From Nannobrachium achirus (lineage: Eukaryota > Chordata > Actinopteri > Myctophiformes > Myctophidae), in assembly GCA_963921795.1 (NCBI GenBank), contig OY997657.1:2571195-2635194 (forward strand): a DNA stretch of 64,000 nucleotides. The letters run 5' to 3'. The notes beneath the pieces are model-generated. The model saw only the letters and a list, made by a program, of their open reading frames with translations, was not told the origin of the DNA and ran no database searches. The position numbers and the translations under genes were made by a program. Of this stretch, positions 11,419-35,527 are shown in pieces (position 1 is the stretch's first letter; every line of letters begins with the position of its first letter).

Positions 11419-11424
11419 TTTATT
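11419..11424 (-). promoter_or_regulatory. Poly(A) signal AATAAA of CARD gene 1
   Basis: TTTATT on the plus strand reads AATAAA on the minus strand, about 950 bases beyond the CARD stop codon. It is conserved in the paralogue (61467-61472), which supports its use. Confidence 0.55.
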
Positions 11425-11850
11425 TAGAATAAGCTTACACACCAAAGAGAGAAAGAAAAAGGTGATAAGACAGTGTGAAATGCGACCGAGTCTCAGGTGC
11501 AAAAACCTTCTCTGAGCTCACAAAGTCAGCGGTCCATAATATCAAGGTTGTCATCAACACACCAACAACCATTGGTTGTGTCTGCATCATGTCTTCATCA
11601 GGGAGGAGGCTGTCTGGAGCCCATGTCCAAAACAAGTCCCATTTAAACCATTCAAAGCTTTATAGACCAACAACATCACATCACTGCAGAGCAGCATTTA
11701 CCATTTAAAATAAAACAACCACTGGAGAATACAAGATCTACAAAACATAAAAACAAATCCCTGAGTTTCATGGTGTCAAACAGAGTGAATCCATGAAGAG
11801 AATCATCATGAACAATGATCTGTGTTCCTGATTCTAAGAGTGTAGGGCAG

Positions 11851-11945
11851 TGGTTCTCAAAGTGAGGTCCAGGGACCCTCGGGGGTCCCTGAGGGGGTTC
11901 CAAATGGACCCTTACGGCAGTAACTCTGAGGACTCCCCTGAGCAA
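11851..11945. mobile_element. hAT-type terminal fragment in the 3' UTR
   Basis: It starts CAGTGGTTCTCAAAGTGAGG and continues with the AGGGACCCTCGGGGGTCCCT palindrome, the usual end of short fish hAT-like elements. It is also present in block B copy 2 (about 61873), so it predates the duplication. Confidence 0.55.
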
Positions 11946-11954
11946 GCAGATCTA

Positions 11955-12125
11955 GCAGGCTCTATTGGCTCAGTGGTAAAAACAACAACAACAACAATAA
12001 TAATTGCGACCGCCAGATCGCTGTTACTATAAAAACCTCCACCGGCTGTCAGTCAGTCTAATAATAATAATAATAAAAATCATCTGCTCTTGTGCAGGAG
12101 ACCTGGGTTCAAATCCCTGGTAGGA
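11955..12125 (+). mobile_element. tRNA-related SINE-like sequence split by another repeat
   Basis: An A-box-like TGGCTCAGTGGTA (about 11967) and a B-box GGTTCAAATCC (about 12108) with flanking AGACCTGG fit a tRNA-derived promoter. They lie about 130 bp apart rather than the usual 30-60, because a GCGACCGCCAGATCGC repeat fragment and AAT repeats lie between them. The same split structure is at 61980-62143. It is not a functional tRNA gene. Confidence 0.5.
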
Positions 12126-12372
12126 CATTAAGGTTACATAGTTTAGCTTTCACAATATTTTCATCTTACATTTCATTCAAATGCTTCACTTCACTGTTGG
12201 TTTATTTTTTAACTCCTATTTCTGTATTCTTACAGGCTTATAACAGTGTTGTCTTCCATGGTCTATTTAACCTTCTCTGCTCTCTCTTCATTTCCCTGAA
12301 ACTATCAGCTCTGGAAACATTGTTTCCACACGGTTAGCATGTCAGGCTAAACCGTGGGGTTAGCATGTCAGG

Positions 12373-12704
12373 CTAATCGGTAGCTGGCGGCTTCAGCTGC
12401 AGCTCTTCACTAAGGTTACTATCCAGCTGATTGATTATGACAATCATGAATGAACTGGCCTTGTTTCCCTTTCTGCACACCATGTCGATAATGTTCCGCG
12501 CTTTGTTTTGTGGGAGCTTTTCACCCATGGCGGTACCCATTTCTTCATAAGTGATGATCTTCTCGTGCAGAAGTTCGTCCAGCAGTAGATTCAGGACAGG
12601 ATCTGAGACTCTTTGAATGAACTCCTTCCTCACAGACAACAGCTTGTCCTCTGCTCCTTTGATGATCTGGGTCGGATGTTGCTGAGTTGCAGGAGTTGCA
12701 GCAC
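12373..12704 (-). CDS. Terminal exon with CARD domain (GIMAP-CARD gene 1)
   Basis: This is the last coding exon: acceptor TTCAAG, then 110 codons to a TAG at 12373-12375. After a short Ala/Thr/Gln linker it codes one death-fold CARD of about 85 residues, including VRKEFIQRVSDPVLN near the start, LLDELLHEKIIT, KARNIIDMVCRKGNKAS and LDSNLSEELQL. The spacing of Leu/Val positions and the RKGNKAS turn match fish CARDs of inflammasome-type proteins. CARDs act by homotypic contacts with other CARDs, for example in ASC or caspases; the partner here is inferred. The exon starts in phase 1, matching the donor of the coiled-coil exon at 14626. The open frame extends upstream to an ATG at 12729, but the splice join makes that ATG unlikely to be the start. 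The paralogue at 62383-62714 keeps the same exon border and stop. Confidence 0.85.
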
Positions 12705-12859
12705 CTTGAAGGGGGATTTGTTTTATCATTAGTGGTGTAATAATAAAATTACCAAGATATTAGATTAAAGCACAATGATACTTTAGAAAAGGGTTAGGTT
12801 GTATAGTCACATTGTCATAATGGAACATTTGACAGTGAAACAGCTTTCAAGGTCACTGT

Positions 12860-13260
12860 TTTAGCCATAGACTGTAAAAAAGAGACGGACAAAGCTACGC
12901 CCAGATACTCTACAGACGGTAAACAAAGCCTATTTAGCAAGCGTGTGCATGACGCCATCTTTCTACATCCTGTCCTGAATGTAGAAATGGTACCAGGATT
13001 CTATTGGTTGGGACAGAGTGAGGGGTGGGTGGGTCAATACATGCTATTGGTTGGGAGCTTGTCAATCAAGCTAGCCCCGCCCCTCCTATGCTTCCTAGTC
13101 ACAACTAGTGACTGGAAGCATAAAGTATTTATGGCAATGTTTATTAAGGTAATAAAATCAATAAAGTTCAGCAAAAACCCATTCACCTGAATGGAGCGTA
13201 ATCCTTGTTGGTACCAGCAGGGGGAAAACAGCAAACTATAGTGGCCGTTCATATGAACTT
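12860..13260. repeat. Dispersed fish repeat (GACTGTAAAAAAGAGACGGA type)
   Basis: An intronic block running from CATAGACTGTAAAAAAGAGA to GGTACCAGCAGGGGGAAA. It has the make-up of a common fish interspersed repeat. It is absent from the matching intron of gene 2 (62715-63028), so it is an insertion. Confidence 0.5.
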
Positions 13261-13483
13261 TCTCTTGAAGTCTTTTCCTTTATCACCTCAACTTGCAAGG
13301 CAGATACTATTCCCTGTTTTTAAGACGTAAAGCAAGCCTAAAAAGGTAGCAATATATAGCCTCACAAACCCAGTACTGAAATGTCAACTTCCTGTTGATT
13401 TTATTATTCCATTTGAAGATCCGGATCAGAATCCAGATCCATGGATACATTCCATAATCTGTATTATTTGCCCTCCTTTATGT

Positions 13484-13917
13484 CAGTGGTTCTCAACCTT
13501 TTCAAGCCGCGACCCCCAAAATAATCATATTTTAACTGGGGACCCCTCACAGCAATAAGAGTTGAGGCATTACATTTTGTATAACATGGCTGTATTGTGA
13601 AAATAGCAGATCTACATGGTCAGAACGCCTCGCAACGCGAGGCGTTGTGACCATGTAGATCAGCTATTTTCACAATTTCTGCCTCTAATATTTAACAATT
13701 TGGCCAATGTTTAATTTGTTATTTTAGAGGTATTAAAAATCCTTAAATTGCCACTTTTTGAATGTGCAGATACCTTCCACACACTTAAACTTTATGTTGG
13801 TTTGTTTACTGTTGATTGAGAAAACAATGTTGCACATGAAGTTAATCATCTGGGAACCCCCCCAAAATAATTTGGGGACCCCCCTGGGGGTCCCGACCCA
13901 CAGGTTGAGAACCACTG
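13484..13917. mobile_element. hAT-like non-autonomous element with 8-bp TSD and internal hairpin
   Basis: The ends are CAGTGGTTCTCAACC and GGTTGAGAACCACTG. Perfect 8-bp duplications CTTTATGT flank it at 13476-13483 and 13918-13925. CAGTGG ends and an 8-bp duplication are typical of the hAT superfamily. At 13594-13676 it contains the dispersed TAGCAGATCTACA hairpin. No transposase. Confidence 0.9.
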
Positions 13918-14029
13918 CTTTATGTGTTAAATAGTGACTTTGAGAGTTCTTTATCATAAAATGTAAGTCAATGAGGAGACTGGAAGATCAGTTTCTATCT
14001 TCATCATGACAAGATAACTATAAACCTAA

Positions 14030-14155
14030 AGCTCTAGCAGTTGGACTAGTTCCATTATGATAAGTTAACTATAAACCTAAACCTCTACCAGTTGGACTAG
14101 TTCCATTATGATAAGTTAACTATACAAACCTAAACCTCTACCAGTTTGACTATAG
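14030..14155. repeat. 51-bp tandem repeat, about 2.5 copies
   Basis: The unit includes TTGGACTAGTTCCATTATGA and AACCTAAACCTCTACCAG. It lies in an intron of CARD gene 1. Confidence 0.85.
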
Positions 14156-14264
14156 TGTCCTTGTGCCAACATTGGAAATATTTTATATGATTTAGGTTTA
14201 GCACCACACAGTAAATAATGTGGAGGTGCCTCCTTTCAAATATGTAACTACAGTAGACTAATAC

Positions 14265-14585
14265 TGTGTGAACATTCACACATTCATTGTACAGTAATCT
14301 ATGTGTTCATATAAACTCATTGTACAGTAATCTATGTGTTTATATAAACTCTACAGTAATCTATGTGTTTATATAAACTCATTGTACAGTAATCTATGTG
14401 TTCATATAAACTCATTGTACATTACTGTCCTGTGTTTATATAAACTCAATGTACAGTAATTTATGTGTTAATTCATATAAACTCATTGTACAGTAATCTA
14501 TGTGTTCATATAAACTCATTGTACAGTAAGTAATCTATGTGTCCATATAAACTCATTGTACAGTAATCTCCATGTTTTCATATAA
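14265..14585. repeat. About 34-bp minisatellite, 9 copies
   Basis: The unit is approximately CTCATTGTACAGTAATCTAT followed by GTGTTCATATAAA, with length variants. It ends about 40 bp from the coiled-coil exon donor at 14625. Confidence 0.9.
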
Positions 14586-14625
14586 ACTCAACAGCAGGTT
14601 GTTTATACAGCAACACTTCACTTAC

Positions 14626-14742
14626 GTTTGATTGAATCCTCAACCTGTCTCTGGTGCATCTTTTCCAGTTTGTCTGCCTGCTCCCTCTGGTCCTGGGTGA
14701 CTTTCTGCAGTAGAGCTGTGAGTTTCTCCACTTGGTCGCTCT
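14626..14742 (-). CDS. Short coiled-coil exon (GIMAP-CARD gene 1)
   Basis: A 117-nt exon (39 codons) between acceptor CAACTCTAG and donor GTAAGT. In phase 1 it reads ESDQVEKLTALLQKV and then QDQREQADKLEKM, a Glu/Gln/Lys-rich coiled coil. It joins the last 33-nt exon upstream and the CARD exon downstream in frame. The matching exon of gene 2 is 891 nt and holds seven more or less complete copies of a 35-residue unit. This short form keeps only material like the ends of that exon, so it either never expanded or lost the repeats. Confidence 0.8.
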
Positions 14743-14989
14743 CTAGAGTTGGAAACAAAACATTAATTAGACATAGCTTAATCATATCCATTAGTAAAGG
14801 ATGTATTTTTCCCCTGACGTCAAAGCCCCATAAACACAAATGTCTTGTTGTCACTGAATCACTCAGTCACTGACTCAAAAGGTTGGCCTTTCTAATTAGC
14901 CAATCACAGAACAATTGTCCAGGCTATGGGATGGTAGTCTATCATCGACTCAGCCTGGATAAAGAGAGTAGAAGTACCTTCCAGGTGCC

Positions 14990-16250
14990 TACAAGAGGGG
15001 AGAAGATGACGGCCTCCATGTGGCCTGCCCTGCATGTAACAAGAAATGGTGCCAAGGCTGGATTATCAAAAAATGGCGTCAATGGGGGGGGGGGGGGGGG
15101 GGGGGGTCCATCCCGACCATCATGGTGGTCTTTCAGGACAGAGGGCCTCCCCAGGTCCTGGAGGTCATACAGCATCTGGCTGAGTCCAATACAGCTTCTG
15201 CTGTCCTTCATCAGGAGACCCACTGTACAGACTGGTTTCACTACACCTTGGTGAAACAGAATCCATTCTTTTGGGAACCAGACATTCCCTCATTAAAGTA
15301 AATGTAAATGATTTCAAGGTCTAAGTTGATGACACAGTAATCCCTAGCAAATAAGAGATTACTTATGTGGGCTGTATTCTTGGCAAATACCTGGCTGGAG
15401 ATGGCATGGCAACAAAGGTGAAGATATTTGAGCAGAATTTCCACTTTTGTCAACTAAAGTGCCCTCAGGACTCTTGCTGGGGCCATCATTCAGCCCATCT
15501 TTGACTATGCTAGCATCTCCTGGTACTCCAACATCAAAATGTCACCAAAGACAAAGCTACAAACCTCCCAAAAATTATTCGACTACTTCTCGACCTGGAG
15601 CCCATTACCTACCTTTCCCACTCATTTCGCTAGTCTAAGATGGCTCAGGGTAGAAGACAGGATTAAACAACTAAAAATGGGATTGGCTTTCAAGATAATC
15701 AATGTGACTCTGCCCTCAATACCCTCATATCTGACTAAACACCTCCAGAAAAATGATGATCTTGCAACATCCACAGCACCATAGGGATCTAAACAACAAT
15801 TTGATACAAACATGGGTAGAGCACTGCCACCCAAGTGTGGAATGCCTTGACAGGATAGAGATGGATGGATGAGAGACAGACAGCCAGTATATCCTGGCTC
15901 CAGCATATTGCATAAAGTCCCAGTCATGGCCTACCAAGCATTTTAAGGTAAATTTCATATTTTTTTGTTACTTAAACCGATCTGTAATATTCTTGTTTTT
16001 ATTAATAAAAAAATTATACAAAAATCGGTTGTTTCTAGTAAACTATGAAGAAGTGGGGCCATGCAGACAGAGCAGAATGCCAGTATGGCCAGACTGAGCA
16101 GACTGCAGAACACATGGTGGTAATCACCACCTGTCCCCTGAACAGAACACCTTCAGAGGCCAGCCTGGGACCAGAGACAAGGGAGTATGGAAACATGAAG
16201 CTGAGTTGGACGTTTGACCATCATACACAAAGGAGTAGGAAGTACAGTTA
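14990..16250 (+). mobile_element. LINE ORF2 remnant, interrupted
   Basis: Fragments of a non-LTR retrotransposon reverse-transcriptase C-terminal region can be read on the plus strand. They include IIQPIFDYASISWYSN near 15487, SLRWLRVEDRIKQLKMG near 15634 and a Cys/His-rich tail (ECQYGQTEQTAEHMVV) near 16075. Frame changes and low-complexity insertions show that it is dead. It lies in an intron of the CARD gene, antisense to it. Confidence 0.7.
15084..15106. repeat. Run of 23 G
   Basis: Uninterrupted poly(G), inside LINE-derived sequence. It can form G-quadruplex structures, and its length should be treated as uncertain in any assembly. Confidence 0.9.
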
Positions 16251-16519
16251 GTATCATCCAAGGAAGTTATGTTGATGCTTTGTAGATCTGTTTACAATTC
16301 CTGGTCATGAAAACAGTTTGTGATTGGTCCAGAAAGACATCTTCCTGGAGAAGTACAACGGTAGTCCTGTCCTACACACTTTGCTTCTTGGAGAAGTTAA
16401 AAGCCTGGGAACAAGGTTCTGTCTGGACTAACGAGGAACTAACACATGAGATCTGAACTGTCCTAAAAGAACAAGCTACAATTAGAAGTTCAAAACCTAA
16501 ATTACTGAACAGCTCTCAC

Positions 16520-16552
16520 CTGGGACAGATGAGGCTGCTCCTTCGGATTGAG
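16520..16552 (-). CDS. 33-nt exon, copy 4 of the 11-residue repeat
   Basis: Bounded by acceptor TTCTTCCAG and donor GTGAGA. In phase 1 it codes one residue made across the join plus QSEGAASSVP. It is the most diverged of four equal-length exons and connects to the coiled-coil exon in frame (G + AG gives Glu). Confidence 0.75.
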
Positions 16553-16830
16553 CTGGAAGAAATACAAGTTGTACAATTAAATAAAACACAAGCTAATATG
16601 CCTTAATAAAGTTAATAAGGCTAAAGGCTTTGGGAGCAGAAAAGCTTGAACTAAATGAACAATGGCAGCTTGTCTGGAAACATTCTCTATTCCACCATAC
16701 AGTTCAACAAACAAAACACATTTCTCATCAGCTCTGTAACATATCACAGATAACAGCTAGTTTAAAGGTTTGTTTTGTTTTAAAAAAGTATTTCAGAACA
16801 TAGAGTCAACTGACTTTAAACTGCACTCAC

Positions 16831-16863
16831 CTGGGACAGATGCTGTCAATGCTTTGGGTTTTG
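16831..16863 (-). CDS. 33-nt exon, copy 3 of the 11-residue repeat
   Basis: Bounded by acceptor TTTTACAG and donor GTGAGT. In phase 1 it codes KPKALTASVP plus one residue across the join. About 300 bp of flanking intron resembles the flanks of the exons at 24018 and 24900, so each exon was copied together with intron sequence. Confidence 0.78.
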
Positions 16864-17279
16864 CTGTAAAAAAAATAAAACCACATTCAAATTAAATTAA
16901 AACAAACGTGAGCTAATATTACCAAGATAAGTTAGAAACAAACAGTTAAGTTGTTAAATCAATCAACACAGTGTCAAACACTCAGTGACAGTCGTAGCTA
17001 AATGCATTAATAAAGGATGTCATTTTCACCTGATGTAAAACTGTGGTGAAAATGTAAAACATGTATAAGACCCTGTTTGGACTGCAGGGTGATGTCTGTT
17101 ATTAATGTGGACTAGACAAGATGTTATTTTATTAATGAAAACATGAGGATTATAATCTGGACTAAGCAGGCACCACTTAACAAACACTTAACTAAAAAAT
17201 ATGACTTATTGCTAAACAAGGGGGAGTTGTCTGGTCTGGTCTGAAACGGTGACATCACACACTAATCCTTTAGCACTAC

Positions 17280-19347
17280 TAGGGTGGATCTTAAATGACC
17301 TTTTTCTGATTTTCTTGAGTCTCACCCCCCAATTATGTTCCAATGTACAAAAAACTGCTTTGGTTAAAATTTGGTTGAATTTCAAGCATATTTAGAGGTA
17401 GCTCAATCAAGTCAAAGATTGTACATTTTATTGGTCAAAATCGAATTGCACTGCAGGCACATTTAAGTTATACATTACACATTATTCTTATACTAAGCAC
17501 AGAAATGATATGTTTTAAGCTTACAAATCTAAACACAAATCTGATTACATGTTTGTCATATGTCAAACCAGAATTAATGTATTGTAGGTAATAGCAAAGC
17601 AAAGAATGACAATTTGCAATTTTTCATTTAACGTGCACAATGACATGTCTTTATTGCACACTCTTCAATCATACTCACAACACACAACAAGTACACAGCC
17701 CCACTTCCTTGTTTACCCCCAAAACCCCCGAAAGTCACTGCAGTATAGCAATTCAGTAGTTACTGATCAATTAAAGTTTGTTTACGGCTATCGGGATACT
17801 TGTGCCGATAGTCCTGCACAATTTGCAGCAAGTATTGGAGTTGGGACTCATCTTTAGTAATGAGACCACAATATTCTTGTATTAGGTCAACCCCACACTC
17901 TGCATGATCATTAACAACATTCATCACCTTCACTACAGCCAGAGCTTCTTGGTAGTCCTCCCTGGGCTCCCACTCAAAGCACCTTGGAAAAAATCTTCAA
18001 TGTTCTTCCTTGCAATTGTTCCAAGGTCAACAGTAATTCTCTTCATATGCCCCTGTTCACCATAAGTGATTGGAAAACTTTTGAGAAGCAGCTTTAGACA
18101 CCTCAGCATTTATTGATGAACCGGATACCTCGCTGCTCGAGGTATCCGGTTCAGAGCTCCAGGAGCTACCCATCATGCCCGTTGGATGGCAAAGGTTATT
18201 TATTGTATGAAGATCTGGATGTTTCATGGCCAATTCAAACTGACCTTCAGGGAAGAAAAAGCATGCATGGATTTGTGCATTTTTGCAGTTTGCAATTATG
18301 TGAAGGCATGGATGATGGCACCTGTTGCTGTCAGCGCTCCACTAAATTACTTGGCAGCTGTTAAAATCGTTGCTGGAATATTCATCAATAAATACTGAGG
18401 TGTCTAAAGCTGCTTCTCAAAAGTGTTCCAATCACTTATGGTATTTTGCTCCAGAGATTGTCGGACTTGCATTGTTTGACAGTCAAGTGAGCGCGCAAAC
18501 GAAGAGGCTGATGGTGAGAGCCATGAAAGATGGAAATGAAGATCATGAACTGAGAATTACTGTTGACCTTGGAACAATTGCAAGGAAGAACATTGAAGTG
18601 CTTTTCAAAATGATGGATCTCCCAGATGACTTCCTTGACGTTGATCCCGATGAGTGGGAGCCCAGGGTAGACTACCAAGAAGCTCTGGCTGTAGTGAAGG
18701 CAATGAATGTTGTCAATGATCATGCAGAGCGTGGGGTTGACCTAATACAAGAATATTGTGGTCTCATTACTAAAGATGAGTCCCAACTCCAATACTTGCT
18801 GCAAATTGTGCAGAACCATCGGCACAAGTATCCCGATAGCCGTAAACAAACTTTAATTGATCAGTAACTACTGAATTGCTATACTGCAGTGACTTTCGGG
18901 GTTTTTGGGGGTAAACAAGGAAGTGGGGCTGTGTACTTGTTGTGTGTTGTGAGTATGATTGAAGAGTGTGCAATAAAGACATGTCATTGTGCACGTTAAA
19001 TGAAAAATAGCAATTTGTCATTCTTTGCTTTGCTATTTCCTACAATACATTAATTCTGGTTTGACATATGACAAACATGTAATCAGATTTGTGTTTAGAT
19101 TTGTAAGCTTAAAAAATATCATTTCTGTGCTTAGTATAAGAATAATGTGTAATGTATAACTTAAATGTGCCTGCAGTGCAATTCGATTTTGACCAATAAA
19201 ATGTACAATCTTTGACTTGATTGAGCTACCTCTAAATATGCTTGAAATTCAACCAAATTTTAACCAAAGCAGTTTTTTGTACATTGGAACATAATTGGGG
19301 GGTGAGACTCAAGAAAATCTAAAAAAGGTAATTTAAGATCCACCCTA
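17280..19347. mobile_element. 2.07-kb element with long inverted repeats and 8-bp TSD
   Basis: The ends are TAGGGTGGATCTTAA and TTAAGATCCACCCTA. Perfect 8-bp duplications AGCACTAC flank it at 17272-17279 and 19348-19355. The inverted repeats extend roughly 700-800 bp inward (17280-18060 against 18400-19347). Near the middle is a perfect palindrome (18119-18152, CCGGATACCTCG and its complement). The TAGGG end and 8-bp duplication suit the hAT superfamily, but P-type elements also make 8-bp duplications. A protein remnant is encoded at 18370-18867. It sits in an intron of the CARD gene. Confidence 0.9.
18370..18867 (+). pseudogene. Transposon-encoded protein remnant
   Basis: A 165-codon open frame with HLWYFAPEIVGLALFDSQ near the N-terminus and NDHAERGVDLIQEYCG followed by YLLQIVQNHRHKYP near the C-terminus. 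It lies wholly within the 17280-19347 element, and its C-terminal half is mirrored in the opposite arm (17850-18050, minus strand). I do not recognise a named family. The repeat context says it is the tail of a transposase or accessory protein, and no catalytic motif can be assigned. Confidence 0.5.
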
Positions 19348-19623
19348 AGCACTACTCACTAATGATGAGCAGGGTAATTACACACAAATATTATTATAGT
19401 TAGATATGATAGTTGTCATTCCATGGAAAACTATTCAGGCAGCGTTTTCCTTTTACTGGAAATATGTACAAGAAGGTCGGCACTGCTCCACAATCATGCG
19501 TAAGCACACACACTTTCTGGGATTATTATTTTTTTCTTTTTTTGGGGGGGCGTGGGGTCTGGAAGATAAAAACATTATACTGACCCTAACAGTGTCAGCT
19601 AATTTTCTACATCATTTGTTTAA

Positions 19624-20159
19624 AGGGATATTCCACTTTCAACAGGGAGCAGTGGAAGGGCCTCTCTCCCCACACACACCCATTGTAACTTCAAACTCCA
19701 TTTTAACCATGATAGATTCATTAAAAACACCCATTATTGTTTCTGGTGACTCATACTACCCTCCTAATACGTGAGCAGGCCGTGTTTTTTCCATAACTTT
19801 TTTCATTTATTTTTAATAATTATTTGGGAAAATGGAAAAAATGAAATACAAAAAAATAATTATTAAATGAAAAAATTTATCGGAAAAACACAGCCTGCTC
19901 ACGTATTATGAGGGTAGTATGAGTCACCAGAAAAAAATAATGGGTGTTTTTAATGAATCTATCATGGTTAAAATGGAGTTTGAAATTACAATGGGTGTGT
20001 GTGGGGAGAGGCCCTGGGCCTGGAGGGCCTGATAACATCATCAATCAAATCAAATATCTAAATATTCAATCAAGCTAATTAAAAACTGTTCAGGGTGTTC
20101 ATAAAAGCCTGATTAGATGATAAAATTACCAAAAGTTTTTTTGAAAGTGAAATATCCCT
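19624..20159. mobile_element. TTAA-flanked MITE, copy 1
   Basis: The ends are AGGGATATTCCACTTTC and GAAAGTGAAATATCCCT, immediately flanked by TTAA at 19620-19623 and 20160-20163. TTAA duplications are made by piggyBac- and Kolobok-type transposases. Internal inverted segments include ATTAAAAACACCCATTATT and its complement. A second copy is at 27278-27795. Confidence 0.88.
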
Positions 20160-20454
20160 TTAATTATTTGACACTAACATAAATATGACACTTTACTCCA
20201 GAGAGGAGAAAATACAGTGCAGGTCAGGACTGGGGAAGCAGACCTTGACATGGAGTTAGACCCAGGACACAGAAAATAGCAGAGGATGTCATAACTAAAT
20301 TATCCATAACTATTGGATATATATTGATTAGATCTAAGAACTATCATCATTTTGTTTTGACATTTTCAGCATTGAGCAGCACCTTAGTTTACACCAAGTG
20401 GAACTATTGTCAATAGAAGCTTAACAAAATGTAAAATAAAGTAATAACATGACT

Positions 20455-20487
20455 ATTCAAAAATATAGCAGATCTGCTATTTTTGAA
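20455..20487. repeat. Short form of the AGCAGATCT hairpin
   Basis: ATTCAAAAATATAGCAGATC pairs with its own complement around a central AGATCT. The paralogous sequence at 25077-25146 has a longer version at the same place, so this copy has probably lost its middle. Confidence 0.6.
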
Positions 20488-21133
20488 AATTCATGAAAAT
20501 GTGTGCAAATCTTTGAATAATATATATCAGTTGTTCCCTGGAACAACTGATCATAGAAACATACGTTTTTTATAAACCTCAGCAGGATTTAGAAGACATT
20601 TGTAGAATTGTCCTCAGGTCTTAATGGGTTAAACCAAGATAAATAAACAGCCATGTGAACATTCACTCCTAATGGACTTCATTGTATCTTTAGTCCATAA
20701 TATTAATTTACACAAAGTGTAATTATGTTCAATAGAACCAGTATAATAGTTTGGTTTTTAACTATTTAAAGACAAAGACAGAATGCATCATCAGAATTAA
20801 TGCATGTCAAATCATGATCACAATGTTTGAAAGAGTTTTACTTGTGTTTGGGGCTTTTATTTATGAAAACATATATGTTTGTTTTATTATGAAAAACCAT
20901 GACAGGGTTTAATTTTTGGAAACTATGTCTGATAATTTTCTTAAGTCAATGTAGAGATGTGCCGATAGATCGGTGAGTGATCGCGATCAGCCGATAATGC
21001 CTCTATCAGCTTTGATCGGTATCATCAGCTTTGCTGATCTACAAGCTAGATCAGCTATTTCAGCTTCAACTCCTACAAGTTGAATTGGATACTAAAGGAC
21101 CTCAGCCTGCAATCTCCTCATGTTTATACTTAA

Positions 21134-23799: not shown

Positions 23800-24017
23800 A
23801 AAATGCCTCACAGTGAGTGAGGGCAGTCCAGTGAAGGCTGTGTAAAAGAGAAGTCACGTCTCCTGTCTCCATGTTTGTTATTTTAATTCCTCCGTAAGTT
23901 TAATATTATTCGGTACTATTTGTGTTTAGTTTTAGCCGCTGATGTTGACTCTGTTATCAGCTTTGTTTAAAAAGTATTTCAGTACATAAGAGTCGACTGA
24001 CTTTAAACTGCACTCAC

Positions 24018-24050
24018 CTGGGACCGATGCTGTCACTGCTTTGGGTTTGG
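24018..24050 (-). CDS. 33-nt exon, copy 2 of the 11-residue repeat
   Basis: The flanks are a GTGAGT donor and an acceptor reading TTTTTACAG. In phase 1 it codes KPKAVTASVP plus a junction Ala. It differs from copies 1 and 3 by only a few bases. Confidence 0.78.
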
Positions 24051-24899
24051 CTGTAAAAATAAAATAAAACCACATTAAAAAGAAATTAAAAAACCAACAT
24101 GTGAGCTAATATTACCTAGACAAGTTAGAAACAAACAGTTAAGTTGTTAAGTCAATCAACACAGTGTCAAACACATCGTAGCTAAATGTACTAATAAATG
24201 ATGCAATTTTCACCTGATGTAAAAGGAGGTGATCATTTATAAGACCCTGTTTGGACTGCAGGGTGATGTTTGATTGATTACACTTTATTAGAAGAAGTTT
24301 GCATAGGAAGATACCGTATCTCTCTGTGTTCTGTGGGCTTTTGAATAGCAAAGATACCTAGTTATACCTAGTTATACCTAATCACACCAGAGATGGCGTA
24401 GTTCAGAGACTTTCATGGTCTGTCTCATGTCAATCATCGCCCTCAGCCCTCCCACCTCATTCTGTATGGTGCAGTCATACTTGAGTACAATTTTGAGGTA
24501 CTTGTACTTTTTAGGCTACTTGAGTATTTCCAATTTCCAATACTTTTACTTCTACTCCACTACATCTCAGAGGCAAATATTGTCAGTTTTTCCTCTACTA
24601 CAGGGTCTTCAACAGGGGGTCCAGAGTTACTACAGGGGGTCCTCCAAATCTTTGTGTGATAGAAACCTTTTTTTCTCCTTTTCTATATTAACCACTTGAA
24701 CCCTGGGGTCCATATTCTGAGAACTTTAGCAAACATATTTTGTAATTGAGGTCAGGAAACATAAAAAAATAAATAAATAAATAAATAAGATTTTAAAAAT
24801 GTAATTTTGATGTCATATGACCATTGAACCAATACTTTTCTACTTTTTTTTACTCACTAATTTGCATCAATGCATTAATTTGCTTTAAACTGCACTCAC

Positions 24900-24932
24900 C
24901 TGGGCCAGATGCTGTCACTGCTTTGGGTTTGG
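24900..24932 (-). CDS. 33-nt exon, copy 1 of the 11-residue repeat
   Basis: First of the four in transcript order. Acceptor TTTTTTTTACAG, donor GTGAGT. It codes KPKAVTASGP plus a junction Thr formed with the last base of the AIG1 exon (A + CC). The join keeps phase 1, linking the GTPase exon at 27808 to the repeat region. Confidence 0.78.
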
Positions 24933-25076
24933 CTGTAAAAAAAAAAGAAAACATTCAAATGAAATTAAAACGTGAACATATATTACCTAGACAAGTTAGA
25001 AACAAACAGTTAAGTTGTTAAGTCAATCAACACAGTGTCATCGCTAAATGCATTAATAAAAGATGTGCTTTAGCTA

Positions 25077-25146
25077 TTCAAAAATAGCAGATCTACAAGC
25101 TCATATCTACAAGCTCATATGAGCTTGTAGATCTGCTATTTATTTT
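25077..25146. repeat. Dispersed hairpin copy
   Basis: TAGCAGATCTACAAGCTCAT and its complement, with a duplicated ATCTACAAGCTCAT in the loop. The host sequence around it is paralogous to 20440-20640. Confidence 0.85.
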
Positions 25147-25257
25147 TTTAAATCATGAAAATGTGTGCAAATCTTTGAATATTCATCATAGAAACATGTG
25201 TTTTATAAACCTCTGCAGGATTTAGAAGACATTTGTAGAATTGTCCTCAGGTCTTAA

Positions 25258-26101
25258 AGTGATCCCTGACTAATACGACAAATATGCCTTAATACATTAT
25301 AATTGTCCTCTATTACTACAATGTAAAATTAAAAACACCTTAATTATTTTATTTCTCCTAGAAATAGCTAATCTTTCACTCAACAGGGGAAATGCCCGTC
25401 GCAAGTTGATGATGTCATAAATGTCATGTGTGATCTAACCCTATGCAATTTATGGCATGCATGTGCAAAAAACACATTTGAAATATTGAGTTGATGCTCA
25501 TATTAACCATATGAAGTATTAAGTTTGTTTTTATTTGCACATGCAGGCCATAAATTCCATAGGGATAGATCACACATGACATTTATGACATCATCAACTT
25601 GCGACGGGCATTTCCCCTGTTGAGTGAAAGATTAGCTATTTCTAGGAGAAATAAAATAATTAAGGTGTTTTTAATTTTACATTGTAGTTATAGAGGACAA
25701 TTATAATGTATTAAGGCATATTTAGTGCCCAAATCCAATATTTGGAGCACTACTGGATGCGACGGCCAAGATGTTGTTAAACGTGTGATCAAACAAAACT
25801 GAAGTCCAAACTTGTCCAGCGTTAAATTAATTATATTTATTGTCAAGGTCCTATACTTTAACTAATAAAATAATAAACAAACAGCATGGCACGAATACAG
25901 ACCACAGTCAATGAAACACAGTTGAAAACTGTTTGCCTCGGCCGTCAGCAACACCTTAGTGTGATCAGGCACCTTGTTAAATAGAGAGGCAATCAGGCCT
26001 TGACCACGCCCTTCCATGACATCATCATTTCAAATCATTAAATAAGCAACAATGCTCAAATGGCTCTTACAGCATATTTGTCGTATTAGTCAGGGATCAC
26101 T
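25258..26101. mobile_element. 844-bp TTAA-flanked element with known empty site
   Basis: The ends are AGTGATCCCTGACTAATACG and CGTATTAGTCAGGGATCACT, flanked by TTAA at 25254-25257 and 26102-26105. The paralogous host at about 20621 reads GGTCTTAATGGG without it, which is a clean empty site. Inside is a further long palindrome (25280-25490 against 25500-25720). A fragment of the same family is near 39335-39370. Confidence 0.92.
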
Positions 26102-26864
26102 TTAATGGGTTAAACCAAGATAAATAAGCAGCCGTGTTTACATTCACTCCTAATGGCCTTCATTGTATTGTAATCTTTAGTCCATAATATTAATTTATAC
26201 AAAGTGTAATTATGTTCAATAGAACCAGTATAATAGGTTGGTTTTTAACTATTTAAAGACAAAGACAGAATGCATTATCAGAATTAATGCATGTAAAATC
26301 ATGATCACAATGTTTGAAAGAGTTTTACTTGTGTTTGGGGCTTTTATTTATGAAAATATATATGTTTGTACGTTTTATTATGAAAAACGATGACAGGGTT
26401 TAATTTTTGGAAACTATGTATGATCATTTTCATAAACTTCAACCAATCAGAAAAGGGGGCAGGTATAAGAAACACCAATGAAGAACAAGGACTCTAAACT
26501 GAATACAATAAGACCACTCACAAGTGGCTACGAGAAGCAGGTCAAATATAAGGGGGTGGAGCCAAGTTGAACCAATGAAGGACAAGACTGATCTGAGTCC
26601 AATGACATCAACCAAACATCTGTATAGCAATCAGCTGAAAGGTTAGAAAAACTAGATCTTGTAGATCAGCTATTTTCACTTCCTGTTTGGCGGTGAAACA
26701 TGGAAGTTTAACGCTTTGACGCGGTCACTCTGTTTTCTGTAAACTCACGCTTTTGATACATTTTCATCATTAAGGTCTTTTATGTAAGCTGAGTGAGTTT
26801 GAGGTTTGATCTGACCATCCTTAGGAGGTTGTTTGAAGAACTCAAATCTGGGAGACGGCACTCA

Positions 26865-26867
<3 letters not shown>

Positions 26868-26961
<94 letters not shown>
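26868..26961. repeat. (GT)n-(GCGT)n microsatellite
   Basis: A GT run passes into about 14 copies of GCGT. Alternating purine-pyrimidine of this kind favours Z-DNA. A similar compound array is at 48065-48180. Confidence 0.95.
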
Positions 26962-26962
<1 letters not shown>

Positions 26963-27118
26963 GTGTGGTGTGTGTGTGCATGTGATAACGGATGACAGAT
27001 CCCGGCAGACTTTTATCTCAGCATTTGATTTGATTACATATTAATTTCTGTACTAAATTATTATTATTCTGTTCTCATGAAGCATGAAGGTGGAGTTTCA
27101 CCAACCACGTACAAATAA

Positions 27119-27163
27119 AGTGAAAACAGCAGATCTAAAAGCTTGCAGATGTGCTATTTTAAC
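27119..27163. repeat. Dispersed hairpin copy, degenerate
   Basis: GAAAACAGCAGATCTAAAAG with an imperfect complement ending GTGCTATTTT. It is shorter than the consensus. Confidence 0.55.
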
Positions 27164-27277
27164 AAATTTTGATGATTTCGGGGTTATTATTATTATTATT
27201 ATTCTTTTGTAGCCTGAATGTTTAAATAATACGATAGTTAGCATGTTAGCATTATGTTAAAGAAGATAAACAGTTAA

Positions 27278-27795
27278 TATTCCACTTTCAACAGGGAGCA
27301 GTGGAAGGGCCTCTCTCCACATACACACCCATTGTAACTTCAAACTCCATTTTAACCATGATAGATTCATTAAAAACACCCATTATTTACCCTCCTAATA
27401 CGTGAGCAGGCTGTGTTTTTTTTTCCGATAACTTTTTTCATTTATTTTTAATAATTATTTGGGAAAATAAAAAAAATGAAATACAAAAATATAATTATTG
27501 AAAATAAATGAAAAAAGTTATGGAAAAAACACTGCCTATTCACGTATTAGGAGGGTATTATGAGTCACCAGAAAAAATAATGGGTGTTTTTAATGAATCT
27601 ATCATGGTTAAAATGGAGTTTGAAGTTACAATGGGTGTGTGTGGGGAGAGGCCCTGGGCCTAGAGGGCCTGGTAACATTTACATCAAATATCAAAATATT
27701 CAATCAAGCAAATAAAAAAACTGTTCAGGGTATTCATAAAAGCCTGATTAGATGATAAAATTACCAAAAGTTTTTTTTGAAAGTGAAATATCCCT
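27278..27795. mobile_element. TTAA-flanked MITE, copy 2, next to a splice donor
   Basis: Same family as 19624-20159. The left end has lost its AGGG, and the right end ATATCCCT-TTAA is intact (27796-27799). It ends about 12 bp from the AIG1 exon border, so the intron begins GTGAGTATTTAAAGGGATAT, with only a few host bases left after the donor. Confidence 0.85.
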
Positions 27796-27807
27796 TTAAA
27801 TACTCAC

Positions 27808-28422
27808 TGTCAGGTGTTGGTGTTGCTGGACTTCCTGTTCCATAGAGACGTCCTCCATTTCCTGCCACCATCTCCTCTACCTTCTGCAGAAGCTCTGTGA
27901 CCTGACTGCCATCACCCCTGTTCTTAATGTCTAAGACATGATATCTGTTCCCACATTTCTCTACAAGCCTCTGCAGGGCCTCTCCTTCACTCTCAATGAA
28001 ATGCTCAATGGATTTACCTCTTAGATTGGTGAACAGGATCATAGTGTGACTCCACACTGTGGGACCGAGAAGCTGCATGTGATCCTCTATGTTTTTACAC
28101 CTATCATCTGGAAGTGACACATCAGCTGATATAACCAGGAGGAGAGCATGTGGTCCTAGAGGACACAGAGATGCACTAAGAACTATCTGCTGTTTGACCA
28201 GCTCAGATGTTTCAGTTAGAGGGTCCTCACCCCACCATCCTGGAGTGTTAACCACAGTGAGGCGTCTCCCCGCTACGTCTCCCTGTCTCTTCTCACACTG
28301 ATCTGTTTCCCCTGAACTAAACTGCTCTGAACCCAAGAGGGTGTTTCCTGATTTACTCTTCCTCCCTGAAGCTCTCCACCCCAGAAGTATAATTCCCATC
28401 TCTGACAGATGGAGGTCATCAC
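27808..28422 (-). CDS. AIG1/GIMAP GTPase exon 2 (GIMAP-CARD gene 1)
   Basis: A 615-nt exon (205 codons) between acceptor TATATTTCAG and donor GTGAGT. It codes an AIG1-type (GIMAP) GTP-binding domain. These proteins act in immune cells, usually on membranes. Visible motifs are LSEMGIILLGW, a P-loop region reading GWRASGRKSKSGNT, NTPGWW in the G3 place (Asn instead of the usual Asp), ALLLVI, and the C-terminal block LVEKCGNRYHVLDIKNRGDG. The P-loop has one residue too many between the Gly and Lys of GxxxxGKS. The G4 region reads LFTNLRGKS, lacking the Gly-Asp normally found there in fish GIMAPs as I know them. Nucleotide binding is therefore doubtful. The C-terminus runs into TPTPD and then the 33-nt exons. 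The frame continues upstream through a CA repeat only because that repeat lacks stops. It may be a separate gene from 33148-33849; the in-phase borders favour one gene. Confidence 0.85.
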
Positions 28423-28459
28423 CTGAAATATAAGAAAGAATACATTCAACATTTAACAC

Positions 28460-28613
<154 letters not shown>

Positions 28614-28777
28614 GACATGTAAGATGTTTTTTTGTGTTAGGGTGCACTGGGTTCAGTCAGTGTTGCCATGTCTGCTTATTATAAGTGACTTTGGGCTACA
28701 GTTAATTTAGCTGAAAATATGTATTTTGGCAGGCCTTGATGGCGTCTTAATGGCTGATTTTACGCTTTATTTACATA

Positions 28778-28854
28778 CTGAAAATAGCTGATCTACCATC
28801 TCACAATGCGTTGCAGTTCAACACGTTGTGAGCTTGTAGATCTGCTATTTTCAG
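28778..28854. repeat. Dispersed hairpin copy
   Basis: CTGAAAATAGCTGATCTACC pairs with the right arm ending GCTTGTAGATCTGCTATTTT, with ACAATGCG/CGTTGTGA in the inner stem. The host flanks are duplicated at 34330-34480, which carries its own hairpin at the same place. Confidence 0.8.
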
Positions 28855-28979
28855 ATCACAACAACCCAGCGCAACCAAACATGAAATGACTTGTCTTTTA
28901 GTTCTACTGGATCTCTTCTCCACCAGTCCCTCCCTGACATTTTAGTGCAGTTTTTATTTGTTGACAAAATTGTCAATAT

Positions 28980-29980
28980 TTAAGGGGAACACACACCGTA
29001 CGCGGGCGGCTGTGCAGCGTCGCAGTATTGACGTGGGTGAAGTGTCGTGCAGTAAAACCAACTGGATGCCGTGTTGCTGCACGGTGCATCCATTTCCACC
29101 GGTGGGAAGAACATTTTCACCGCTCAGAAACGCTGGGAAAATAAAACAGCTGCGTATCGGCGCGGCTAGCGAGGCGACAGACCCGCGCAAGGATCCCCAA
29201 ATTAATATGTATTTGTCCACAGACCCCCATCTGACAATATTCTGTGCCAGGGGACCCCCCAATGTGTTGTTAACAAGCCCCCAGAACGGCTTGTAAATAT
29301 TGAAGCTTTGGCCCTACTGGCCAAAGCTGGAACTGCAGACGGGGTAAAAATACATGCACAAGCAAAAGAGCCACTGGGGTCTGCCATGGGGTTCAATGGA
29401 CGTCGTTCGACGTTCGTCACGTAATTGAGTCTCGACGTAACAAATGTTGGCACATCCAGATGTGCCAATTTCCCCCACAATGCACCTGGATGCTGCTTCT
29501 TCTGGGTGCTTCAAAGAACCACCACTGAGAAACTTGCATTGAAATGAATAGCTGTCCGTTCTCTATATTATATATACAGTAACTCTATGGTTGTTAAGCA
29601 TTTAAGAATTCATATTCAAAGTCAGCGGCGGTCAGATGGGGGGGGCCAGCGGGGCAGATGCCCAGGGCGGCAAGCAACGCCGATGAGAAAAGAAAATTCT
29701 CCCATTGCGTGACGCAGAGCCCTCTAGGCTCTGACATCAGTGGCATGAAGTAGGGGCTATCTGGCTACTTCTATTTCCAGTACAATTTCAATTGTGTTGA
29801 ATGATCGATAGTATAGATGAAAAAAAGAAAGGCTCTTGTTTTGAAATGCGCTTCTGCGCACCGTTTAGAGAGGAAATGGCTTTTAATGGACATCCGTCTC
29901 TCTCTCCCCGTGCGTCACGATGGTGCGTCGTGGACTCGTGGTCAAAACAACACAGGCATAAGGAATATACAACAAAACAC
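28980..29980. other. Intronic stretch without recognised gene
   Basis: Mixed, fairly GC-rich sequence with probable transposon ends, such as GGGGAACACACACCGTACGC at 28984 and a GACCCCCATCTGACAATATT segment near 29221 that is shared with about 34690. No exon with good splice sites and domain content was found. Confidence 0.4.
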
Positions 29981-30225
29981 CAAGACAAGACAACGTAGGC
30001 TATAAAGGCATTAAACAGCGTCCTCTCATCTTCAGCAGGACAGCAGCTGGTGAGTCGTGACTATATTAGAGTGATGACAAGATAATGCTGCTGGTTATTG
30101 TGCTAATGTTGCACTGTTGTGATGCCTTAGTGGCTAGTGGCTACAGAAGACCACTGTTTCCAAAAACTGGGGTCGGGGACCCATGCGTGGGTCGCGTCGC
30201 GGACACATTGTAGCCTATGGGTCCT

Positions 30226-30298
30226 AAAAATAGCCGATCTAGAAGTTCACAACGCCACTTGAAGCGACTCATTGTGAGCTTGTAGATCTGCAATTTTT
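30226..30298. repeat. Dispersed hairpin copy in a hAT-like host
   Basis: AAAAATAGCCGATCTAGAAG and the arm GCTTGTAGATCTGCAATTTT. The host (about 30150-30372) has CTGTTTCCAAAAAC and the inverse of GGTTCCCAAACG at its ends, the usual style of short hAT-like elements. Confidence 0.75.
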
Positions 30299-30689
30299 AA
30301 CTATTACTAGTTTGGGTCCCCAAACATTTAATTTCTCTTGGGTCATTGGCTAAAACGTTTGGGAACCATGCTTGCTGTAGACAGTGGTGTAAAGTAACTA
30401 AGTAGACTACTCAAGTATGTACTTTCGAGGTATTCGTAGGCTACTTTACTTGAGTATGTCCTATTTTCCAATACATTTACTTCTACTCCACAGTGGTTAT
30501 ATTACCCACCCCATTATATTAAGCGGTTCTGCCGCCGTGTAGAACCGCTTTTAACCGTTTTTTGTTTTTTTTTTACTTTCAAAATGAATCACTTCCCGTA
30601 GTAAAACATATTTTTTCGCCCGTGCTGCGCCAAAGGGCGGCGCTCTACTGGTTCGCCCAGGGTGCCATATAGGCTGGGACCGCTACTGT

Positions 30690-30760
30690 TCAAAGTAGCC
30701 GATCTACAAGCTCACAACATGTCACAAAGCGACACATTGTGAACTTGTAGATCACTTTAC
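30690..30760. repeat. Dispersed hairpin copy
   Basis: AAAGTAGCCGATCTACAAGC and the arm TGAACTTGTAGATCACTTT, with CTCACAACATGTC in the inner stem. Confidence 0.75.
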
Positions 30761-30895
30761 AAATCTTCTCTTATGGAGGTCCTTGGCACAACATATTTTC
30801 AATTGGGGTTCTGTGGATCAATGGGGGTTAGGGTTATTGTCCAATCTTCCAATGTCCTTGACATGAACACGAGAAGCAGTGCAAAAAAACCTCAC

Positions 30896-31555
30896 GGCTG
30901 GACTACACCAAAAGATGCACGCATACGCGTGTACTGTCCGTGAAGACGCTCGCATATGCATAAACGCTCCAGGCTACACCAAGGAGGGAGTATATGTGAG
31001 GAAGACCAGATGGTGTGTGTACAAAACGCATACGCGTGCTTAAAAAATAGAACAATCCTTTTTTTAGGGAATGCGTATCCGTGGTTAGCGCTATCCGTAC
31101 GCCTGGTGTAGCCGGCTGCATGGACGGATTAACCCCCGTGAGGGCCCCTGGCCTATATTTTTTTAGGGCCCCCCACCCTTCACAGTAACCCCCCCCCCCC
31201 CCCCCCCCCCCTCCCTCCCAACATGCACTACCCAGCTCGGATTTTAAGTCATGATGATCATCTGTGGGCCAAGAAAACACTGTAGACAACAGAAGAGGGG
31301 CCCACACTTTTGATTTTTAATTAAATGTATACATTTAATTATAGTAAATTGTCAATGACCGCACGGCTAAGTTCCCCCAAGGGGCCCTGAGAGCCAAGGG
31401 CCCCTGGCAACGGCCCCACTGGCCCAATGGTTAATCCAGCCCTGGCCGGCTGAATTGATATACATTGGATCTATCCAAAACGTGCATACGCACACACGCC
31501 CCGCATACGCACGCATACGCACTGACGCGTGCAAAACGGCTTGGTGTAGCCAGGC
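30896..31555. mobile_element. Element with GGCTACACCAA ends, interrupted by a hAT element
   Basis: GGACTACACCAAAAGATGCA on the left and the complement of GGCTACACCAAGCCGTTTTG on the right are related inverted ends, with CGCATACGC-rich sequence inside. The 31119-31444 element is inserted in it. Confidence 0.55.
31119..31444. mobile_element. 326-bp hAT-like element with 8-bp TSD
   Basis: The ends are CATGGACGGATTAACC and GGTTAATCCAGCCCTG. Perfect 8-bp duplications GCCGGCTG lie at 31111-31118 and 31445-31452. It contains a run of 23 C (31189-31211). Confidence 0.9.
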
Positions 31556-32029
31556 CAATATATTTCAGATTTTTCAAAGGCTTATAGGCTTCATGTAAAT
31601 AAATAATAGAATTTCTGATCTGTACAATCTATTTGTTAATTTTATGTATTTAGTAAATAAAACACATTGTATTGCTATCAGCCAGAAACATCTCCATGTT
31701 TAAAATTCCTAGATCTTTTCTAAATGAACATCCTACTTAATCACACATTTGTTTTTATATTTTTATTTTCTTTTATATTGTCATCATTATTCATTTACAC
31801 TCATTATTGAGTGATGGAAGGATGTATTTGATTGGTCAGTGGTCAGTGTGTGTCTGTGAGAAGAATTAGACAGTATCCTTATCAACCACACCCATTACCG
31901 TGGGAACTAGGGGTGCTGCGTGGGCGGCCGCCATCAGTATCATGGCTCAGAAACACATATAAGATTTCTTTGTGGGCCTAAATCAAAAAAGATGTACTAG
32001 TGTTGATGATGATGAGTCGGTTACTGTCG

Positions 32030-32600
32030 GTTACTGATGATGAGTCGGAAGCTGTATGCCCAAGCCAACATGCTGTGTCGCAAATTTAGCATGTGCTCTG
32101 TACCTGTGAAGATATCTCTGTTTAGATCCTTTTGTACACCACTGTATACTGCCCAGCTTTGGTGTCGCTACAGACAAGGCAGCATCAGACGTCTCACAGT
32201 GGCCTATAATGACTGTATGAGGCTGCTGTTAAGAGCTCCGAGAAGCTCCAGTGCGAGCCAGATGTTTGTCAGTGTGGGGGTTCCCACCTGCTCTGCTGTA
32301 CTACGCAACCTTATGTACAGGTTTATGTGTAGGGCATCTGAGTCAGTTAATGACATCATTGCTGTTATAACGGACCCTACACGCAGTGCTGTCAGGTTCT
32401 CATCAAGACTGTGGAACCATTGGCGCACATGTCTGTATGTCAGAAACTGATTTTTTAGGCTTGGTGCTCTGTGCTTTTATTTTGAATTTTTTATTACTTG
32501 TTTTTTGTATTGTTTTATTACATGTTCTTGTATTGTTTTATTGTATTGTGACTGATATGGATCCTCCTGGGTCTGAAATAAAGATTGAATTGAATTGTCA
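32030..32600 (+). mobile_element. LINE ORF2 3' fragment
   Basis: About 135 codons resemble the C-terminal part of a non-LTR reverse transcriptase (KLYAQANMLCRKFSMCS, FRSFCTPLYTAQLWCRY, LRNLMYRFMCRASES). A 3' UTR ending AATAAAGATTGAATTGAATT follows, a typical LINE tail. It is 5' truncated, as expected for retroposition. Confidence 0.75.
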
Positions 32601-33147
32601 ATTTGTCAATCATCGGAGGATGAGGAAGTGGAGCCTGTGGAGGACGTGGAGGTTCCACATTTATCTAAAAAATAAACTGCGGAAACCCGAATAAAACACA
32701 AACAAAAACGCATAAAACCGGTAATTTTCGGCGCGCGCCGACACATGCATGCGCAACAGCCCCTCGTGCTTTAAATGAGTTCCCGCGGCATTGACCACAC
32801 CTGTGTAATTAACTACTTTAAAACATGTCAGTCTTAAACCTGATGGAGGCAGCTTGCACTGCTGAAACGTTTATCAGTTGACCACACCTGTGCTGTGAGT
32901 GGTCAACAGAGAATAGTGATATTTGTCTCTCCATTCACTCTCAATGCATGGCTAAACAGCTCTTAATTTACACTTTAAGAACGTAAAAAACACAAATGTT
33001 TTCTGTAAATGTCACAAATGTCTACTGTAAATGTGTTGATGACTGTTTGATTATTTTATGATGAGCATTGATTAAAACGTCATGCTGTGTCTGTGTATTG
33101 AGAAGTGTGTTAGTGACAGATGTGATTTAAATGAATTAATAACATAC

Positions 33148-33849
33148 CCATCAATGACCTGATGCTCTCTCGTTCTTTCTTCACCTTCATCTGTCGTCGT
33201 GTTGCTCCCTCATCCTGTGTTCTCCTTTTCTTCTCAGTCTCCTCTAACACTGCTCTGTCTATCTCAAAACAGCCTCCTTTATCTCCTCCCATCTCCTCAA
33301 TCTTCTGCAGAAGCTCTGTGACCTGAGTGCCATCACCCCTGTTCTCATTGTCAAAGACATGGTATCTGTTACCACATTTATCTACAAGCCTCTGCAGGCC
33401 CTCTCCTGCACTCTCAATGAACTCAATGGATTTACCTTTTAGATTGGTAAACAGGATCATAGTGTGACTCCACACTGTGGGACCAAGAAGATCCACGTGA
33501 TCCTCTATGTTTTTACACTTATCAGCTGTAAGTGACTCAACAGTTGGTATAACCAGGAGGAGAGCATGTGGTCCTGCAGGACACAGAGATGCACTAAGAA
33601 CTATCTGCTGTTTGATCAGCTCAGGTGTTCTGTTTAGAGGGGTAGCAGCAAACCATCCTGGAGTGTCAACAACAGTAACAAGTCTCCCCGCTACGTCTCC
33701 CTGTCTCTTCTCACACTGATCTGCTCTCTCTGAAGGGTCTACAGTAAACTGCTCTGAACCCATGATGGTGTTTCCTGATTTACTCTTACTCCCTGAAGCT
33801 TTATACCCCAGAAGTATAATTCCCATCTCTGACAGATGGAGGTCATCAC
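33148..33849 (-). CDS. AIG1/GIMAP GTPase exon 1 (GIMAP-CARD gene 1)
   Basis: A 702-nt exon (234 codons), acceptor TATATTTCAG and donor GTATGT, both phase 1. It codes an AIG1 domain close to that at 27808-28422: LSEMGIILLGY, a P-loop region reading GYKASGSKSKSGNT, VDTPGWF (intact G3), ALLLVIPTVESL, LFTNLKGKSIE in the G4 place and LVDKCGNRYHVFDNENRGDG. As in the sister exon, the P-loop has one extra residue and the G4 motif is shortened. Unlike the sister it carries a basic C-terminal helix, RAVLEETEKKRRT to MKVKKERESIRSLMG, usual for fish GIMAPs. The next in-phase acceptor downstream is that of 28422, so a tandem two-AIG1 protein as in GIMAP8 is likely but unproven. The start codon was not located; upstream candidates are the leader exons at 41721 or 47790. 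Confidence 0.85.
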
Positions 33850-35357: not shown

Positions 35358-35527
35358 CTGGAAATAAAAGAGCAATAGTCATAAATGATATCAAATTAAT
35401 TTCAAACTGTAAATATTGGAGACAATATTATCATATCAATCATTGACATTAACCTGAAGATGAGGCCATCTCTGCACGGGGGGGGGGGGGGGACTCTTCA
35501 CAGTGAACTGGACTGATGCAGCCTGGT

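Follow-up and report, generated by a model that had tools for sequence, protein, structure and literature searches.

The window analysed here is a 64,000-nucleotide stretch of the Nannobrachium achirus genome (C20:2571195-2635194 of the 1.66-Gb assembly GCA_963921795.1; C numbers denote its contigs). It very probably carries, on the minus strand, one gene in which a start exon, E0, is followed by two AIG1 exons, four 33-nt linker exons and then the coiled-coil and CARD exons. The gene model was read from genomic DNA, and the exon joins were checked by splice site, phase and open frame. E0 (35454..35471) encodes MASSS plus one base, with the acceptor ...GTGCAG/AGATGG and the phase-1 donor CTTCAG/GTTAAT. 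AIG1-A (33148..33849, 702 nt) and AIG1-B (27808..28422, 615 nt) are delimited by splice sites and reach 98.1 and 98.6 bits with Pfam AIG1, against a cut-off of 27. The best PDB match of AIG1-A is GIMAP7 (E 3.6e-20), and a Pfam scan at E up to 1 found no GBP domain in the AIG1-A and AIG1-B stretches. Downstream lie the four microexons, which encode an 11-aa linker repeat and were also placed by their splice sites: r1 (24900..24932), r2 (24018..24050), r3 (16831..16863) and the diverged r4 (16520..16552). The coiled-coil exon (14626..14742, 117 nt) was defined by splice sites and is too short to judge alone. The CARD is C-terminal; its exon (12373..12704) includes the stop codon and scores 44.3 bits with Pfam CARD, against a cut-off of 23.9. 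A probable poly(A) signal, AATAAA, lies at 11419..11424 and is identical in an aligned second copy of the gene. Each intron of the model has GT-AG ends and phase 1. The joined frame, of nine exons with E0 included, stays open up to the CARD exon's own stop and encodes 637 aa. The first-pass annotation had described an open minus-strand frame, joined at phase 1, that passes from a pair of AIG1 exons via four exons of 33 nt and one coiled-coil exon into the CARD exon, and every one of these exons and joins was recovered. E0, a broken AIG1 exon and the tail of the second copy were absent from that earlier account and are added here. The exons of the window are most likely joined into one mRNA.

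Searches of the whole assembly were performed with the head and the tail of the gene. The AIG1-A search listed 150 matches, of which 48 exons, those before a drop in identity from 62% to 50%, were taken as its own subfamily. The CARD search gave at least 150 matches, with 20 among the matches listed at ≥70% identity. A listed CARD lay 3' of 36 of the 48 subfamily AIG1 exons, on the same strand and within 60 kb, and this was seen in both orientations. Grouped by hand, these 36 exons form 18 units on C20, C27, C93, C90, C11 and C5. Of the 150 CARDs listed, 25 lie 3' of their nearest listed AIG1 within 60 kb and share its strand, nine share its strand and lie 5' of it, two are on the opposite strand, and 114 have no listed AIG1 within that distance. 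Since the A-B-CARD order repeats in the C20 arrays, several of the nine cases with the CARD 5' reflect the next unit; this does not hold for C20:3819733, an A-type exon with neither a listed B exon nor a listed CARD within 60 kb. As a side observation, a first look for PF04548 across the genome gave 781 candidates (150 scored), a very large AIG1 expansion.

The microexons occupy the space between head and tail in the same order elsewhere. A pattern comprising the microexon and its splice sites found 33 genome copies at ≤3 mismatches, against none for a reversed control; three of the four window microexons match it at this threshold, r4 being the one that does not. When the copies were placed relative to the 48 AIG1 exons and 34 of the 150 listed CARDs, 21 of the 33 lay between an AIG1 exon (5') and a CARD (3') on one strand. 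By comparison of coordinates by eye, a further seven have a TLDc exon on one side and a CARD on the other, and one follows TLDc only. Two more had a CARD only, and two on C3 had neither a head nor a CARD listed; around these last two (C3:1752855 and C3:1757156), tblastn found no AIG1 or TLDc in the surrounding 9.5 kb. The 33 copies against none in the control, together with the recurring AIG1-microexon-CARD order, show that the arrangement is more than chance.

Two further lines of evidence connect head and tail. A compact copy on C5 packs AIG1 (126.2 bits), coiled coil and CARD (49.4 bits) into 3 kb, and once its two phase-1 GT-AG introns are removed the reading frame is continuous, its only stop being at the end. 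The AIG1-B exon extends as far as a donor, as was read directly in the window, in the second copy and on C5, and 16 other exons match the C5 AIG1 exon to its last residue with no stop. E0 was found in 13 genome copies at ≤3 mismatches, against none for the reversed control. Eight of the 13 precede an AIG1 exon by less than 5 kb (by about 0.1 kb in three, of which one has an altered donor base), a ninth lies 13.5 kb 5' of one, another is unassigned, and the other three lead CARD units without a listed AIG1. Two such units, at C20:5925900-5932000 and C20:6045900-6050700, read as E0, microexons, coiled coil and CARD; tblastn found no AIG1 in either, and a repeat with working positive controls agreed. 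They may encode CARD-only products. A start exon common to AIG1 units and to CARD units that lack AIG1 is hard to explain with two genes. Together, the recurring order, strand and phase, the compact 3-kb copy and the common start exon strongly support, at the DNA level, the proposal of the first-pass annotation that this is one gene.

The AIG1 heads of the window gene are probably pseudo-GTPases, because the P-loops of both are altered. They are lengthened (GYKASGSKSKSGNT in AIG1-A, GWRASGRKSKSGNT in AIG1-B), and the canonical GxxxxGK[ST] is absent from each. The G3 motif, DxxG, reads DTPG in AIG1-A and NTPG in AIG1-B. Across the subfamily, the canonical P-loop is present in 12 of the 48 exons, and P-loop and G3 change together: the G3 aspartate is present in nine canonical exons and absent from two, and present in one altered exon and absent from 35, with one exon unscored (Fisher 3.8e-7, a value inflated because the copies are related). 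Four units have a canonical first AIG1 and a non-canonical second one (C20:1397202, C20:1959853, C20:2920026 and C4:9828413). Both are canonical in the AIG1 pairs on C11 and C2, and both are altered in many C20 units. In the window, the broken AIG1 exon (~35170..35357, minus strand; 40.7% to AIG1-A by tblastn) has the canonical P-loop GHKGSGKSSSGNT, followed by an early stop and deletions. It is entered in phase 1 and can therefore be skipped with the frame kept. Since this exon would fit the first AIG1 position, the GTPase head of the window copy has apparently been lost. Thus, of the 'GIMAP-type sensor' put forward earlier, the AIG1 domains hold and a canonical GTPase P-loop does not, both of the kept domains being non-canonical.

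The copies differ most at particular places in the AIG1 domain. Variable stretches were analysed in 29 of the 36 non-canonical exons, after dropping two near-identical C93 exons, three C10 exons, C4:9833050 and C20:1392561. The ratio of nonsynonymous to synonymous differences per site (pN/pS) was 1.88 in the P-loop, 2.05 at residues 35-42, 4.15 at 66-75 after G3, 3.95 at 135-143 and 22 at 100-110, where silent changes are very few; the stretches were chosen after viewing the aligned copies, so these ratios are descriptive. Outside the variable stretches, pN was 0.055 and pS 0.098. One tentative reading would make this a combinatorial family of CARD-tailed cytosolic receptors. Phase-1 shuffling would put one microexon-coiled coil-CARD tail on different heads: a canonical GTPase AIG1, a series of AIG1 domains (as many as five listed exons per unit), TLDc or none. 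The former nucleotide face of AIG1 (P-loop, the stretch after G3, 100-110 and G4), hypervariable under positive selection, would have lost GTP binding and become a surface for recognition.

The best PDB matches of the window gene's CARD are caspase-1 (3.9e-7), ICEBERG (3.6e-6) and NLRC4 (4.3e-5); for the C5 CARD, the order is ICEBERG (3.7e-7), NLRC4, caspase-1. The residue aligned with caspase-1 R10 is kept in 30 of 30 CARD loci and that aligned with D27 in 29 of 30, which we take to be residues of the type-I interface. The tail is also found with other heads. On C19 (C19:53083000-53092900), a TLDc exon (PF07534, 72.5 bits) with a phase-1 donor stands in place of AIG1, and TLDc matches are placed likewise on C16 and C21, out of 18 in the genome. 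This suggests that the tail has been shuffled between AIG1, TLDc and no head, and that a CARD has been added in fish to GTPases of two families or more, GBP and AIG1 among them, as well as to TLDc. On C18 (C18:8208500-8210500), one open exon of 541 aa comprises FIIND (136.6 bits), UPA-FIIND (77.7 bits) and CARD (30.0 bits), about 10 kb 3' of an AIG1 exon of a different family on the same strand. Of 102 FIIND matches (among 151 listed), 13 have an AIG1 from among the matches listed within 25 kb: ten on the same strand with FIIND 3', three with FIIND 5' and none on the opposite strand. An AIG1-FIIND-CARD family is possible from this arrangement.

The tail of the second copy spans 63919-62383, also on the minus strand. 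It comprises a coiled-coil exon of 35-aa (five-heptad) repeats (63029..63919; Tandem Repeats Finder period 105, with splice sites) and a CARD exon (62383..62714; Pfam CARD 44.7 bits) with the same phase-1 join. Its AIG1-B, r1 and r2 were read just outside the window, and an AIG1-A match lies further 5', at C20:2646444. In its coiled-coil exon, residues agree at an offset of 35 in 121 of 261 positions. The coiled-coil call rests on a tally of hydrophobic residues at heptad positions a and d, which gave 3/5 and 3/5 for the window exon and 21/42 and 17/43 for the second copy, where the next highest position had 12/42; longer relatives of the window exon show heptads. A coiled coil, often long, lies within 1.5 kb 5' of the CARD in 11 of 30 CARD loci. 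Between window and second copy, divergence is 13.7% in the CARD exon, 14.0% in the preceding 86 intron bases and 2.9% in the 3' flank; given the figure for the intron, the excess divergence is not confined to the CARD exon. It was also observed that CARD divergence peaks at 25.5% in a 110-base stretch (12570-12461), the 3' flank being at about 3%.

Elsewhere in the window, an inverted repeat at 17280-19347, with arms about 93% alike around open frames, looks like an intronic mobile element; the open frame scanned in it (18346-18867, plus strand) had no Pfam match. An open frame at 5597-6457, with tandem 84-nt repeats and HTGEKPY-like linkers, appears by eye to be a C2H2 zinc-finger exon.

The closest working model for what the product might do is zebrafish Gbp4, which combines a GTPase with a C-terminal CARD and is described as entering the Asc speck, needing Asc and working via caspase-1 (PMC4932187). 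By analogy, the product of the window gene would be a cytosolic scaffold working like Gbp4. Its coiled coil would bring protein copies together, and the clustered CARDs would recruit or nucleate ASC/caspase-1-type CARD filaments. The AIG1 heads would set when and where CARD signalling happens; as pseudo-GTPases, they would bind other GIMAPs, membranes or microbial products instead of switching with GTP. The window copy, its GTPase head broken, could be partner-driven or a decoy. Taken as a whole, the account of a single window gene, belonging to a partly tandem family and encoding a Gbp4-like CARD scaffold, is in our view fairly probable. For the activating-scaffold mechanism itself our confidence falls somewhat short of even, and it is favoured over a decoy. 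The clustering, the CARD partners and the sign of the effect are argued from the analogy. Coupling to inflammasome signalling is likewise conjectural, though caspase-1 and ICEBERG are the nearest PDB matches of the CARD.

The decoy explanation also takes the exons as one gene, whose product would lack GTPase activity and use its CARD to cap or poison ASC/caspase-1 filaments. This is the action ascribed to CARD-only proteins, among them ICEBERG, which consists of a CARD alone. ICEBERG is close to the window CARD and is the best match of the C5 CARD, but the activator NLRC4 scores nearly as well. The broken canonical exon, the altered P-loops of AIG1-A and AIG1-B and the two headless C20 units would all suit a decoy, and GTPase-deficient Gbp4 is described as dominant-negative yet still in the Asc speck (PMC4932187). 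However, the coiled coils found 5' of CARDs favour clustering, and conservation of the R10- and D27-like residues does not separate activator from decoy. A decoy is a possibility that we regard as the less probable of these two mechanisms.

It appears unlikely that the window gene is decaying into a pseudogene while the rest of its family functions. Its first AIG1 exon is broken, its coiled coil has shrunk to 117 nt, its introns contain repeats and the family-wide ratio of nonsynonymous to synonymous substitution rates (dN/dS) is near 1. Against this, every exon and splice site of the model is intact. No stop was found in any of the 48 matched AIG1 stretches or in 24 CARD copies, which we judge unlikely under neutrality given how far the copies have diverged, and pN is below pS outside the variable stretches.

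Several results weigh against the Gbp4-like, one-gene account. For 12 of the 48 AIG1 exons, three of them at contig ends, no CARD was listed 3' within 60 kb. In two of these 12 (C10:18176845 and C2:4430651) the tail stretch contains a stop, so some members of the subfamily may be plain GIMAPs. A genome search with the spliced linker-to-CARD protein gave no retrocopy, none of the matches listed spanning window-type exons. Median dN/dS was 0.96 for the altered AIG1 exons (587 of 630 pairs kept after filtering by dS), a value that relaxed constraint would also give; for the CARD, it was 0.85 (264 of 276 pairs, from 24 of the 30 CARD loci). Co-duplication of head and tail was considered and rejected, as head and CARD distances were uncorrelated across units (Mantel -0.10 with nine units, -0.03 with 15). 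This denies the simple co-duplication argument and could be explained by gene conversion or exon shuffling, the latter reported for zebrafish NLRs (PMC4852459). Two neighbouring genes, one for a GIMAP and one for a CARD protein, would accommodate the uncorrelated distances, the tails without AIG1 and the AIG1 exons that lack a listed CARD or meet a stop, but this is very improbable, as AIG1 exons end at donors without a stop, the coiled-coil and CARD exons begin at acceptors, microexons occupy the gap in order, there is almost no space for a further gene in the C5 copy and E0 leads units with and without AIG1.

The role of the GIMAP expansion in teleosts, where these genes are reported to have multiplied to nearly 190 in some species (PMC9245644), is poorly known, and a C-terminal caspase-1-type CARD gives part of it a testable output in ASC specks and caspase-1 activity. 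The GTPase-like, altered and headless forms make a natural series for asking whether CARD signalling needs GTP. The same CARD tail on different heads points to what may be a little-studied inflammation switch in fish.

The first-pass annotation had suggested that a GIMAP with a CARD may be new. AIG1 coupled to CARD is already published for a snail (PMC7053062) and for amphioxus (PMC12373286), so only the fish arrangement is potentially new; no description of a fish AIG1-CARD gene was found in the mostly openly accessible literature, judged mostly by titles and opening lines. The gene of the snail Biomphalaria glabrata, given as DD-CARD + AIG1 + coiled coil, likewise has the three parts in one protein, and AIG genes there are in tandem; its CARD is written before AIG1 (PMC7053062), whereas the window CARD is C-terminal, after the coiled coil. 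The amphioxus CARD + AIG1 (+ HINT) proteins have an N-terminal CARD and a C-terminal HINT, in contrast to the window CARD, which is C-terminal to AIG1, and the recurrent amphioxus architectures are described as unique to amphioxus among animals (PMC12373286). Mammalian GIMAP8 also has several AIG1 GTPase domains in one protein, but three of them, and the word CARD is absent from the main text of the review consulted (PMC8201404). Caspase-1, ICEBERG and NLRC4 share the CARD type by best PDB sequence match; unlike caspase-1 and NLRC4, the window gene has no protease and no NACHT. Unlike NLRP1/CARD8, it has no FIIND before its CARD in the stretches scanned, and none of the genome FIIND matches listed falls in the window. 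The zebrafish NLR-B30.2 family is similarly a large fish immune family with exon shuffling between its parts, but those parts are NACHT, LRR and B30.2, and the word GIMAP is absent from the paper's main text (PMC4852459). Like zebrafish Gbp3 and Gbp4, as described in PMC4932187, the window gene joins a large immune GTPase-type head to a C-terminal CARD in a fish; unlike them, it has two altered-P-loop AIG1 domains, a microexon linker and a coiled coil where these proteins have a GBP head.

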